DNA of 64,000 bases from contig SVAP01000005.1 of NCBI GenBank assembly GCA_015059335.1, forward strand, positions 1-64,000, written 5' to 3'. The notes under the pieces are model-generated. The model was not told the origin of the DNA. It saw only the letters and a list, made by a program, of their open reading frames with translations, and did not search any database. The stretch is from Bacillota bacterium. Its GTDB lineage: Bacteria > Bacillota_I > Bacilli_A > RF39 > UBA660. Both the position numbers and the translations under genes were made by a program. Positions within the stretch are counted from its first letter, which is position 1. Every line of letters begins with the position of its first letter. Below, piece after piece: positions 12,426-21,932 of the stretch.

Positions 12426-12507
12426 GCTTCCTCCTACTAAAATAATTTATCATACTATCTACAATTAGTATAACAAATAAATATATTTATGTAAATTTTA
12501 TATATAA

Positions 12508-12549
12508 CAAAAAAGCTAGGATTTCCTATTGAAATTCCTAGCCTTTTCT
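12508..12549. terminator. Hairpin with T runs on both sides
   Basis: The arms GCTAGGA and TCCTAGC (12515-12521 and 12536-12542), extended by a TTT/AAA stretch, are flanked by A and T runs. It can terminate in either direction between the small membrane protein and the tRNA-His-side segment. Confidence 0.6.
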
Positions 12550-12672
12550 ATGTTTACAAACATAATGTTTGATTTTCCCATATATGGGGCGTGTTATGAA
12601 CATAATAGAAGCCCCCTATTTTAAATTGTCCTTACAATAAATTTTATACTGCGTAATTTAAATTTAGTCTAG

Positions 12673-12705
12673 AATTTTTGACCTTTTTTTGACCAATTTT
12701 TGACC
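12673..12705 (+). repeat. Left array of three 11-nt TTTTTGACC repeats
   Basis: Three adjacent 11-mers read AATTTTTGACC, TTTTTTTGACC and AATTTTTGACC. Their GAC triplets begin at 12680, 12691 and 12702, exactly 11 nt apart. It lies 19 bases 3' of the orphan ORF. Confidence 0.85.
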
Positions 12706-12723
12706 ATGTTAATTTTACTAGAT

Positions 12724-13797
12724 TTAGTTTTTCTTATTATTTATTAACAATAATGTTTTTTGTCCTTTTTCAGATAATCTATCTAAACTAAACAATTCTG
12801 AATATAAATACATTTTTCTAAATAATTTATCATCTTTACTACATCTATCTTCAATTCTTTGTTTAAGACAATCTGATAAAATTTCTTTAGGAATATTTAC
12901 TATAAATCCACAGTGTGGACATACTTGATAATATCTATATAAACGGTCATTTGGATTAACAAATATTTCATTTTCTTTAATAATGAAATATTCACCGCAA
13001 GGTTTAGTATTTTCTGGTCTTCGTAACCTTGTTTCAATCAAGGTTTCAATATACTCTTCTTCAATACCACAATTTATTTCTAAATCATTTGGTAATTCAT
13101 CATGATATCCTAAATATATTTCTTGTTTTTCTCTTTCTGTAAAAATTGAGTTATTATATTCAAATTTAGGTGAATTTGAAATTGTTGTTATAAACTTATT
13201 TTTCTTAATTCCTATATCATTTCTATCTCTTCTTGGTTCTTTTTCTTTTTTTGGAAGAACAATTGAATCAAAATCATGTAAATCTGGTTTTATACCACTT
13301 GTATAAATTTTTCCATTATTTTTATATCTACCAATTCTAAAGTATTCATCTAAAACTTTCATTTTATTAACTTTATTTTTCAAATCACCTGATTGTTCTT
13401 CAATATATCTAGCAACAGCACCTAAAATACTCCAATGATCTAATTTAATATGCATTATTGCATCTTTACCTTCATTAGCTTTTTCTATCAATTGCATTCC
13501 ATTTTTTACTTTTTCCAAATATTTTTTATTATTTTTTTTATTTTCTGTCGTTTCATATAATATACTTTCTTCCATAGGAGTATCTGTAAATAAAAAATCT
13601 TCAAATAGTATATTTATATCATTTTTATAGTCCAATTTTAAATATATATACGGTTTATCAAAACCAAATTTTTCTTTACTTTTTTTAAATTCTTCTTCCG
13701 TTTGTTCATACATATATGGTGCTACTATTAAGTAAGCATTTTCATAAATATATTTATATCTTTTAACTAACTCTTCTTTTGCTTTTTCTAATGTCAT
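12724..13797 (-). CDS. Orphan protein with C-terminal zinc-ribbon-like cysteines
   Basis: Not recognised. The ATG at 13797 has GGAGG eight bases upstream; that site contains the earlier ATG at 13812, which is rejected. About 357 residues, soluble and highly charged. An early acidic/aromatic part (IVAPYMYEQTEEEF, PYIYLKLDY) is followed by a basic linker (PRRDRNDIGIKKNK). A C-terminal CPHCG, with further cysteines in LSDCLKQ and EDRCSKDD, could bind zinc. The gene stands alone, with phased TTTTTGAC arrays on both sides and tRNA-His next door, so it may be cargo of a small integrated element. Confidence 0.6.
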   Translation of the reverse strand: MTLEKAKEELVKRYKYIYENAYLIVAPYMYEQTEEEFKKSKEKFGFDKPYIYLKLDYKNDINILFEDFLFTDTPMEESILYETTENKKNNKKYLEKVKNGMQLIEKANEGKDAIMHIKLDHWSILGAVARYIEEQSGDLKNKVNKMKVLDEYFRIGRYKNNGKIYTSGIKPDLHDFDSIVLPKKEKEPRRDRNDIGIKKNKFITTISNSPKFEYNNSIFTEREKQEIYLGYHDELPNDLEINCGIEEEYIETLIETRLRRPENTKPCGEYFIIKENEIFVNPNDRLYRYYQVCPHCGFIVNIPKEILSDCLKQRIEDRCSKDDKLFRKMYLYSELFSLDRLSEKGQKTLLLINNKKN

Positions 13798-13878
13798 TGA
13801 CAAAACCTCCATTTATATTTTTTATTATAACATACAAAACCTGTTTAAAACAAACAATTTCATAAAAAGTCCAGTACT

Positions 13879-14010
13879 ATTTTTTGACTTATTTTTGACC
13901 TTTTTTTGCCCATTACATGACTTTTTTCTCTATATTTTTGACTTTTTCTGTACTTTTTCAGTACCTTTTCGGGACTTTTTGGGGACCAAAAGTTGACTTA
14001 TTTTTGACTT
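13879..14010 (+). repeat. Right array of about twelve degenerate 11-nt TTTTTGAC repeats
   Basis: GAC (or TAC) triplets preceded by T-rich sequence begin at 13886, 13897, 13919, 13940, 13951, 13962, 13973, 13984, 13995 and 14006. There is a GCC in phase at 13908. The spacing is 11 nt, with one 10-nt correction between 13919 and 13940. The spacing is close to one DNA turn, so the units would lie on one face of the helix. The array begins about 50 bases beyond the tRNA-His 3' end. Confidence 0.85.
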
Positions 14011-14061
14011 TTTTATGCAAAGAAAAAGTGAAGCGTATTTCAGCTTCACCAAATTACTTAA

Positions 14062-14138
14062 TGGGGCGAAATATGGGGATCGAACCCATGCATACCGGAG
14101 CCACAATCCGGCGTGTTAACCACTTCACCAATTCCGCC
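14062..14138 (-). tRNA. tRNA-His (GUG), CCA encoded
   Basis: The minus strand folds as a cloverleaf with the extra 5' G(-1) typical of tRNA-His facing C73. The acceptor stem GCGGAAT pairs with ATTTCGC. The anticodon stem CCGGA/TCCGG holds the loop TTGTGGC, anticodon GTG. The T arm is GTTCGATCC-like, and the 3' CCA is encoded (plus-strand TGG at 14062-14064). Confidence 0.95.
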
Positions 14139-19767: not shown

Positions 19768-21843
19768 TTATTCATCAGCAAAGAAGTCATCAAAGAATTG
19801 ATCATCACTAATTTCTTCTTCATCATTTTTTACATTTTCAGTAACTATTGGTTTTATTACATTACTTTCATTTGTAACATTTAATGATTGCGGATTAATT
19901 ACATTGCTATCAATTGCAGGAATGATATTTTCTCTTTCTTGTTTTTCCTTTTCAAGCTTTTCTTTTTCTCTTCTTTCTTCTTCCTCTAATTCAGCAATTT
20001 TAGCATCTATCTTTTTAACTAAATCATCAACATTAAAATCATTATCGTCTGATGGCATAGCGAATGGATTAAATGGCGCAGCAGGTATACTAGGACCTCC
20101 ACCATTTGAACCTTCTAGAATATTAAACAAATTACTTTTTTTCTTTTCTTTAACAAATTCTTTTAATTCGAATACCTCAACAGGTTTTTTATCCCTAGTA
20201 GGAAGTTCAGCCTTTGAAGTATCTTGTGGCCCCCAATTCATTTGGAATTGTGGAGTCATTTTAGTTTTAAATGGGAATTTACGAAGTCTTAATACTATCA
20301 TCTCAAACTTCTTCATTCTTTGTAAATCACTTACTGTAACCAACGGTGTAGAACTTGTTTTTTCTTTTTCTTTTGATTTAACTTCCCCACATAGTTTACT
20401 TATTTCTTCAAGAGCTTGTAACTCTGTACTTATTAAATAAATTGTATTACCACAGTTACCTCTGATAGTTTCTGCATTTTCTTTACCATAAACTTGTGTT
20501 AATTGTGCAAAGTTTTGAATAATAAAGTTAAATCTTATTTGTCTAGAACGAGCAGCAGTAATCATTGTAGTAACATCTTTTAATGGTGGCATATTAGCAA
20601 ATTCATCCAAAATGAAGTTAGTTCTAACAGGAAGTTTCCCACCATTTTCTTGAGCAACATCAATTAATGTTTCATAAACTTGTTTTAAGAATATTGTTGC
20701 AAGTGGATGATATGTTTTCTTTTCATCTTGAATTATAATGAAAACAGCAGTTTTTTGTTTTCCAATATCTTGCATATCAAAGTCACTATGACTTAACATT
20801 TCAGATAAATTTTCTTTTGATGAAAACAATTTTATTTTTTGTCTAAATACTGAAAGAATACCACCCTTAGTTTCTGTAGGCGCATTGATTGTACTAGATG
20901 CATTAATATATGCAGGTTTAGTTGGATCTTTCATATTAAAATATTCTTTTATATATGTAGAACCACCAAACTTATCTTCCCCTACTGTACTCATATAATT
21001 TATAGAATTAAGATTAATTTTATCTTCTTCTGCATCTTCAAACATACCTAATGATAATCCAGTAAAATAGTCAGCAGAAGTTTTTTCCCAGAATGGGTCA
21101 TTACTTTGACTCTTTTCATCATATAGAATATTAATTGCCAAGTCATCTAGTAATTCTGTAGATTTATCACCATTTCCACTCTTATATAATTTATATGGCA
21201 TTTGAAATGGATTCCATGCATTACCACGTTGTGGATCACGCAAATTTAATACAATAATTTTATATCCACGTTCTTTTAACATATTAGCAGTAGCATCATA
21301 AATTTCACCTTTAGGGTCGGTAATAATCATTGATTCACCTTTTTTAGCTAAAACATTAACCATTGGAAAAACAATTAATTGTGTTTTACCAGAACCAGTA
21401 GACCCTATAATAAGATTATGATACTCACCATCATCAACCCATACAGTCTTACCATCATTAATAATTGGAATACCTGCATATTCACTATCTTTTGCTGTAG
21501 GATTAACAGGCTTTAATTCCCTTTTAATTTCATCTGGTTTAGCCCATCTTGAATATCCCTTATCACTTTTAGATGTAGAAAAACCAGTACCTTTTTCTCT
21601 ATCAAAAAAGTATGATTTAACACTACCAAAAGCAACTAAAATTGCAATAATGTAAAATACCATTGTTGGTTTTAAATATTCGAAATTAGTAAACGCTGGT
21701 ATTGGATTTAATCCATGAAATGAACCAGTATTTGCTAGTGACGCAAAATTTAGTACAGCAATCGCTACTAAATATAACATCATTATTAACATTAATATAA
21801 ATATTAACCAATCCTCTTTATTAGCAGTAAACTTAAGTTTCAT
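19768..21843 (-). CDS. VirD4/TraG-family coupling protein
   Basis: ATG 21843 has GGGAGGC upstream. The 691-residue protein has two N-terminal membrane helices (about 12-35 and 60-80). The VirD4/TraG ATPase core has Walker A GSTGSGKT (about 147-154), DPKGEIY, Walker B-like NFILDEFANMPPL and AARSRQIRFNFIIQNF. The C-terminal 120 residues are a charged coil ending in an acidic tail (DDQFFDDFFADE). By family it recruits DNA or protein substrates to a type IV secretion channel. No relaxase is present nearby, so the substrate is unknown. Confidence 0.9.
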   Translation of the reverse strand: MKLKFTANKEDWLIFILMLIMMLYLVAIAVLNFASLANTGSFHGLNPIPAFTNFEYLKPTMVFYIIAILVAFGSVKSYFFDREKGTGFSTSKSDKGYSRWAKPDEIKRELKPVNPTAKDSEYAGIPIINDGKTVWVDDGEYHNLIIGSTGSGKTQLIVFPMVNVLAKKGESMIITDPKGEIYDATANMLKERGYKIIVLNLRDPQRGNAWNPFQMPYKLYKSGNGDKSTELLDDLAINILYDEKSQSNDPFWEKTSADYFTGLSLGMFEDAEEDKINLNSINYMSTVGEDKFGGSTYIKEYFNMKDPTKPAYINASSTINAPTETKGGILSVFRQKIKLFSSKENLSEMLSHSDFDMQDIGKQKTAVFIIIQDEKKTYHPLATIFLKQVYETLIDVAQENGGKLPVRTNFILDEFANMPPLKDVTTMITAARSRQIRFNFIIQNFAQLTQVYGKENAETIRGNCGNTIYLISTELQALEEISKLCGEVKSKEKEKTSSTPLVTVSDLQRMKKFEMIVLRLRKFPFKTKMTPQFQMNWGPQDTSKAELPTRDKKPVEVFELKEFVKEKKKSNLFNILEGSNGGGPSIPAAPFNPFAMPSDDNDFNVDDLVKKIDAKIAELEEEERREKEKLEKEKQERENIIPAIDSNVINPQSLNVTNESNVIKPIVTENVKNDEEEISDDQFFDDFFADE

Positions 21844-21932
21844 AAAATTGCCTCCCATAATTAAATAACAAATTCAAATATATTATATCATAAAAAATCA
21901 TAAATATTAATTAATATTTATGATTTTATTTA

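Follow-up and report, generated by a model that had tools for sequence, protein, structure and literature searches.

What lies between the tRNA-His gene and its native terminator on contig SVAP01000005.1 of a Bacillota bacterium (assembly GCA_015059335.1), and how did it arrive there? Within the 64,000-nucleotide stretch of this contig that was analysed (the window), the tRNA-His 3' end ATGGGGCG occurs in exact form at 12584 and 14061 and nowhere else, against 0.07 occurrences expected. An earlier note on this DNA had taken the recurrence of the tRNA end with its CCA at 12584 as the mark of a minimal tRNA-His element, and comparison with related genomes bears this out. Positions 12584-14068 constitute an integrase-less insertion of 1,477 bp at the 3' end of tRNA-His, with the core duplicated at both insertion ends and the target tRNA-His intact (Table 1). 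Between the cores there is only one long ORF, without a Pfam integrase match.

Table 1. Parts of the insertion at tRNA-His and its flanks (positions in the window)
Feature	Position	Strand	Remark
tRNA-His (GTG), target gene, intact	14062..14137	-	ARAGORN
Proximal core CGCCCCAT = attL, tRNA 3' end including CCA	14061..14068	-	second copy at 12584
Cassette left end = P' half-site and terminator hairpin	14018..14060	-	gives tRNA-His a terminator
11-nt phased array, GTCAAAAA-type on the minus strand	13870..14012	-	12-13 units
Leader: TATAAT-like box and GGAGG ribosome-binding site	13813..13869	-	alignment and BLASTN
Single cargo ORF (listed length 362 aa)	12724..13812	-	
Second 11-nt array, 3 exact units	12675..12704	-	
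Cassette right end = P half-site region (...GGGGGCTTCTATTATGTTCATAACA)	12592..12674	-	homologous to L020 end and G251 cassette 4
Distal core CGCCCCAT = attR	12584..12591	-	
Displaced native 3' flank of tRNA-His, B' half, strong terminator	12507..12583	-	

The empty site was found in G002, a genome of the same genus, in which tRNA-His is joined directly to the distal flank of the window. The sequence following tRNA-His there, TTTATGGGAAAATCAAAC...GCTAGGAATT...AATCCTAGC, corresponds to the minus strand of the window left of 12584 (BLASTN: 83% over 86 nt, E 2e-17), and contig C37 of G002 carries the window's upstream genes (NifU-like and a 309-aa gene) and ends in tRNA-His. The occupied and empty pair that the earlier note had proposed as a check is thereby in hand, with the window occupied and G002 empty, and it follows that the 1,477 bp entered at the 3' end of tRNA-His and separated it from its native terminator. 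Relative to this empty site, and as read from the sequence, the event is a site-specific insertion into tRNA-His. In G002 the only overlap between two contigs, L053 and L054, is tRNA-His itself, a hint that strains in the source sample may vary there.

The crossover lies within the 8 bp CGCCCCAT common to both sites. The left end includes a hairpin terminator of the cassette's own (GTGAAGC-N8-GCTTCAC followed by a T run; -11.3 kcal/mol, z -2.2), so that tRNA-His retains a terminator after the native one (hairpin -19 kcal/mol, z -5.8) is displaced. This P' half and hairpin are kept in the cassettes of G251 and beside the core of L020, both described below. For the candidate attP a formal palindrome score was not discriminating, and by eye only an outer AGCTTC...GAAGCT pair is apparent. 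A TTATG motif near the core prompted a comparison with XerCD/dif sites; by eye there was neither an XerC half nor dif-like spacing, and the candidate was dropped.

The insertion belongs to a family of cassettes. A 29-mer made of the right end and core, searched with up to three mismatches in 386 family genomes, matched in the host and in G251 only, in the latter four times in a row. In G251, a member of the same family, six cassettes of 1.1-1.4 kb stand in tandem between tRNA-His and ligD, with five cassette boundaries, the last of which has a mutated core, TGCCCCAT. The left end of the window insertion matches those of cassettes 4, 5 and 6 at 80% over 292 nt, 85% over 168 nt and 84% over 227 nt, respectively (E 1e-75 to 4e-49), the right end matches that of cassette 4 at 88% over 113 nt (E 9e-36), and the leader is conserved in cassettes 4 and 6. 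Despite these conserved ends the ORFs are unrelated; cassettes 1-3 contain diverged copies of one gene whose product is probably membrane-anchored. The six combine two types of left end and two types of right end in various ways. The cargo ORFs of G251 gave no confident Pfam assignment and only weak PADLOC or PHROG matches, to families mostly of unknown function. All genomes used are apparently draft or metagenome-assembled; misassembly of the G251 array is unlikely but not impossible, since six different units lie on one 157-kb contig. Homologous recombination in the shared terminator could be an alternative origin of the G251 junctions past the first.

The same attachment end was found on a phage. 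L020, picked from viral contigs with three exact repeat units, is a prophage end that runs from terminase to endolysin and on through an 11-nt array, a P half with core and a terminator to ligD, the gene that also terminates the G251 cassette array. Its P half is 74% identical to that of the window over 151 nt and is the only phage match of the cassette P half. The contig begins after the lysogeny module, the integrase gene lying off the contig. Phages related to L020, with terminases 79-91% identical, are common in the viral collection; two of six sampled relatives encode large serine integrases (597 and 505 aa; PF00239 and PF07508), and a tyrosine integrase (PF00589) was detected in none of the six. 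As judged by sequence, the cassette is flanked by att sites, lacks an integrase and shares its right end and core with a related autonomous element, L020, which is how a trans-mobilised element or CIME is recognised. Together with the tandem sister cassettes, this prophage end favours what the earlier note had proposed in part, namely that the insertion would be a passenger of another element's integrase.

Which enzymes act at this tRNA gene is suggested by other genomes of the family. In four of them (G007, G081, G076 and G118) tRNA-His is occupied by large serine integrases. The enzyme of G007 lies directly downstream of tRNA-His and is 96% identical to that of phage G427 over 54 aa, at a contig end. 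G081 has a complete 6.95-kb element, located between tRNA-His and a repeated GCCCCAT at the far end, with genes for a small ORF, a 606-aa serine integrase and a Mob_Pre relaxase. With the G081 integrase as the query in an independent sample of 117 family genomes, matches were obtained in 57. Among 29 other sampled loci, a tRNA or tmRNA 3' end was located 431-904 bp upstream on the same strand in 24, and the genes concerned were those for tRNA-Gly, Leu, His, Arg, Thr, Phe and Cys and tmRNA; one of the remaining five had almost no testable flank. Whichever the tRNA, the conserved P' half usually starts right after the encoded CCA. Two intragenic core matches in G072 were disregarded, about 0.07 chance matches being expected per 8-kb flank from base composition. 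Loci of this tRNA- and tmRNA-targeting clade, with the integrase about 600 bp downstream of the RNA gene, were noticed at L284-L312, L150, L221, L263, L271-L274, L276 and L281. A 2014 survey described serine integrases as not known to use tRNA-type targets (PMC4383910).

Elements without an integrase also occur at tRNA-His. Islets bounded by tRNA-His and a second GCCCCA plus terminator were found in G022 (L059; 0.79 kb, one gene), G010 (L222; 2.6 kb), G069 (L223; 3.3 kb, with a protein kinase gene) and G068 (L234; 3.3 kb). The four have different P halves, and that of G068 is the same as that of the G081 serine-integrase element, which directly supports that non-autonomous elements share sites with autonomous ones. 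In G029, tRNA-His is accompanied by a solitary P' half of the integrase type. Against a profile of serine-integrase P' halves, those of most cassettes scored above about 99.5% of shuffles and far below most true members. No recovered integrase has an attP that fits the cassette, and a serine integrase at tRNA-His is missing from both host MAGs, which are 90% and 78% complete. Elsewhere in the window there are a large serine recombinase of a different clade (PF07508; 45265-46908, minus strand), one of nine PF07508 matches in the host genome, and a type IV coupling protein (T4SS-DNA_transf; 19768-21858, minus strand), which suggests conjugation genes in the window.

From the insertion, the cassette family with its tandem array, the att end shared with a prophage and the serine integrases of the family at tRNA-His, all read in the sequences compared, we infer circularisation and mobilisation in trans by a serine integrase. 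The insertion is thus probably a non-autonomous single-gene cassette that entered tRNA-His by site-specific recombination of the serine-integrase type. Such a cassette would circularise at its joined ends, and the circular junction would carry ...TTATGTTCATAACACGCCCCATTAAGTAATTTGG...; insertion and excision would depend on a large serine integrase supplied in trans, from the clade that in these Bacilli targets the CCA at tRNA and tmRNA 3' ends. The most likely carrier of the helper enzyme is a phage of the L020 type, in which the integrase gene would be expected beside a P' half like GCCCCATTxAG..TTTGGTGAAGCT. Each insertion would recreate a usable junction at tRNA-His, so that cassettes could then grow in tandem.

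The role of the phased arrays was considered separately. As the earlier note had described, there are two arrays with 11-nt spacing, of 3 and about 12 units. Exact TTTTTGAC units lie at 12675, 12686 and 12697 in the short array and at 13881, 13892, 13935 and 14001 in the long one (13881-14008, 12 units), the remaining units of which are degenerate. The regular phasing over about 130 bp is real apart from one 10-nt step: lag-11 self-identity of 13868-14012 is 0.60 versus 0.34 +/- 0.04 in dinucleotide shuffles, 0 of 5,000 of which reach 0.60, and a pattern of seven GT[CA] units at 11 nt is present in the long array and in 0 of 100 shuffles. The three-unit pattern has no second occurrence in the 1.3-Mb host genome, and the repeats are confined in the host to the att-flanking position; their scatter over non-att positions would have refuted the earlier note. 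In other genomes, pairs of repeat units are background and not at tRNAs; the six-unit arrays of G346, G192 and G309 are built from other motifs and lie inside phages or satellites; and of the viral contigs with three TTTTTGAC units, most (L015-L019, L021) have them away from att sites. GTAACGT-type 11-nt arrays were also seen beside a DnaD-like gene in phage-like regions of G346 and G192 (L148 7251-7449 and L149 7291-7463).

A reading of the arrays as binding sites for a helper protein, possibly an origin resembling an iteron-type site for a replication initiator, is put forward with low confidence and is the weakest step of the best explanation. It is favoured because the islets of G022, G010, G069 and G068 have no 11-nt array, which argues that phased arrays are no general need for recombination at tRNA-His, and because the arrays of L019, L147 and L148 adjoin genes matching families of phage replication initiators. 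The arrays might instead be regulatory, acting through a repressor or DNA curvature on the cargo promoter and having no connection with mobility or replication. In favour of such a role, the window insertion and all six G251 cassettes have the long array immediately before the promoter and ribosome-binding site. It is nevertheless considered unlikely, because the window insertion and G251 cassettes 4 and 6 have another array on the downstream side of the ORF, and because the array at the L020 phage end is placed between a gene and the att core.

A tyrosine integrase with the arrays as arm-type sites on either side of the core, as the earlier note had envisaged, would move the same cassette by another enzyme. 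Such a mechanism has some basis, in that the arrays flank the core inside both ends of the window insertion and occur on the L020 prophage end as well, and that tRNA 3' ends are commonly used by tyrosine integrases (PMC4383910). Furthermore, the host has a resident tyrosine integrase (contig G000:C8 near 308.7 kb; L127) with an array of TTGTTTGCAG units phased at 10 nt immediately behind its gene (L127 8704-8848), a plausible arm array; a 24,355-aa open frame in the same contig proved to be a run of masked N. However, among the tyrosine integrases of the host, G251 and G002 and 69 viral relatives, none has GTCA arms or a CGCCCCA core, and the matching arm sites that the earlier note had suggested looking for elsewhere in the host genome were not found; these negatives come from incomplete MAGs, in which absence is no proof. 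The L020-type phages have serine integrases, the right-hand array is absent from G251 cassettes 1-3 and 5, core identity extends over 8 bp only, and in this family tRNA-His is a serine-integrase site. Movement by a tyrosine integrase is accordingly quite unlikely.

It is still more doubtful that the insertion is what deletion has left of an L020-like prophage or larger island, namely two ends and one cargo gene, as the earlier note had allowed in speaking of a remnant. The homology of its right end to the L020 prophage end and the abundance of related phages would fit such a loss. A lone remnant is hard to reconcile, however, with six similar-sized cassettes in G251 that keep both ends around unrelated ORFs and combine their end types variously, or with further single-gene islets at the same tRNA.

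The probable start of the cargo ORF is the second ATG, at 13797 (MTLEKAK...), which fits the homologues, and the C-terminus of the protein has a CxxC/C Zn-ribbon-like motif. No PADLOC or PHROG family and no confident Pfam assignment was obtained, and the structure model (pLDDT 59) is of low confidence, its fold not usable. The earlier note had spoken of one orphan ORF: a single ORF does lie between the arrays, but it is no orphan, having homologues with 55-72% identity on six other Bacilli MAG contigs, including Candidatus Caccenecus. On none of the six are the repeats present or is the gene beside tRNA-His; since the homologues occupy ordinary chromosomal positions, the cassettes appear to pick up chromosomal genes. 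The same positions could be cited for an ordinary chromosomal gene that stands beside tRNA-His with repeats by chance, a notion that is hardly credible given the duplicated core and conserved cassette ends and that the empty site excludes, provided that the G002 contig is not chimeric.

Mobilisation in trans of a single-gene cassette by a serine integrase remains the preferred reading, and a bolder version of it may be offered tentatively, as rather improbable in full: the cassettes might be the smallest known phage satellites, each made up of a full att site for a serine integrase, an iteron-like array serving as origin and a single exchangeable gene, while a helper phage supplies every protein; they would pile up at tRNA-His like integron cassettes with no resident integrase and form a branch of the elements that use serine integrases at the CCA end of tRNA genes. 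The findings suggest a gene-capture system in small-genome gut Bacilli, integron-like yet relying on a tRNA gene as its site and on the serine integrase of another element, and point to a clade of large serine integrases that target tRNA and tmRNA genes at their CCA ends. Serine integrases with natural single-copy tRNA sites would be useful tools.

Integron cassette arrays and CALINs consist of tandem single-gene cassettes whose recombinase lies outside the cassette. The present cassettes resemble them in both respects; unlike in integrons, no IntI is seen, the cassettes share long ends, and each has a promoter, a terminator and, in place of an attC, the two half-sites that make up a full att. 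The pdif (dif) modules of Acinetobacter, as outlined in PMC13141974, are likewise small gene modules without a recombinase, served by an enzyme in trans, but that enzyme is host XerCD acting at plasmid-borne dif sites, whereas the present site is a tRNA gene and the enzyme probably a serine integrase of a phage or IME. As in tRNA genomic islands (Islander, PMC4383910), the target tRNA is restored and a displaced fragment marks the far end. Minimal phage satellites (PICMI), in the account of PMC10803314, are also small and phage-dependent, a dependence that here is a proposal; they encode their own life-cycle genes, whereas the present cassettes have a single cargo gene and perhaps an array for replication. 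CIMEs, as described in PMC3146451, are similarly flanked by att sites, lack integrase and transfer genes and stand in tandem with relatives; in that description they move with an adjacent autonomous partner, whereas here none is adjacent and the element sharing the att is a phage. A parallel in arrangement is found in the ssrA islands of Dehalococcoides, which are built on serine recombinases and stand in tandem where an RNA gene ends at its 3' side; some have no integration module and are regarded as cis-mobilisable (PMC3146451). Those islands are larger, with a CcrB-like two-gene recombinase and a 20-bp repeat at tmRNA (PMC3146451), whereas the elements at tRNA-His are single-gene cassettes of about 1.1-1.5 kb, each with its own terminator, promoter and phased arrays.
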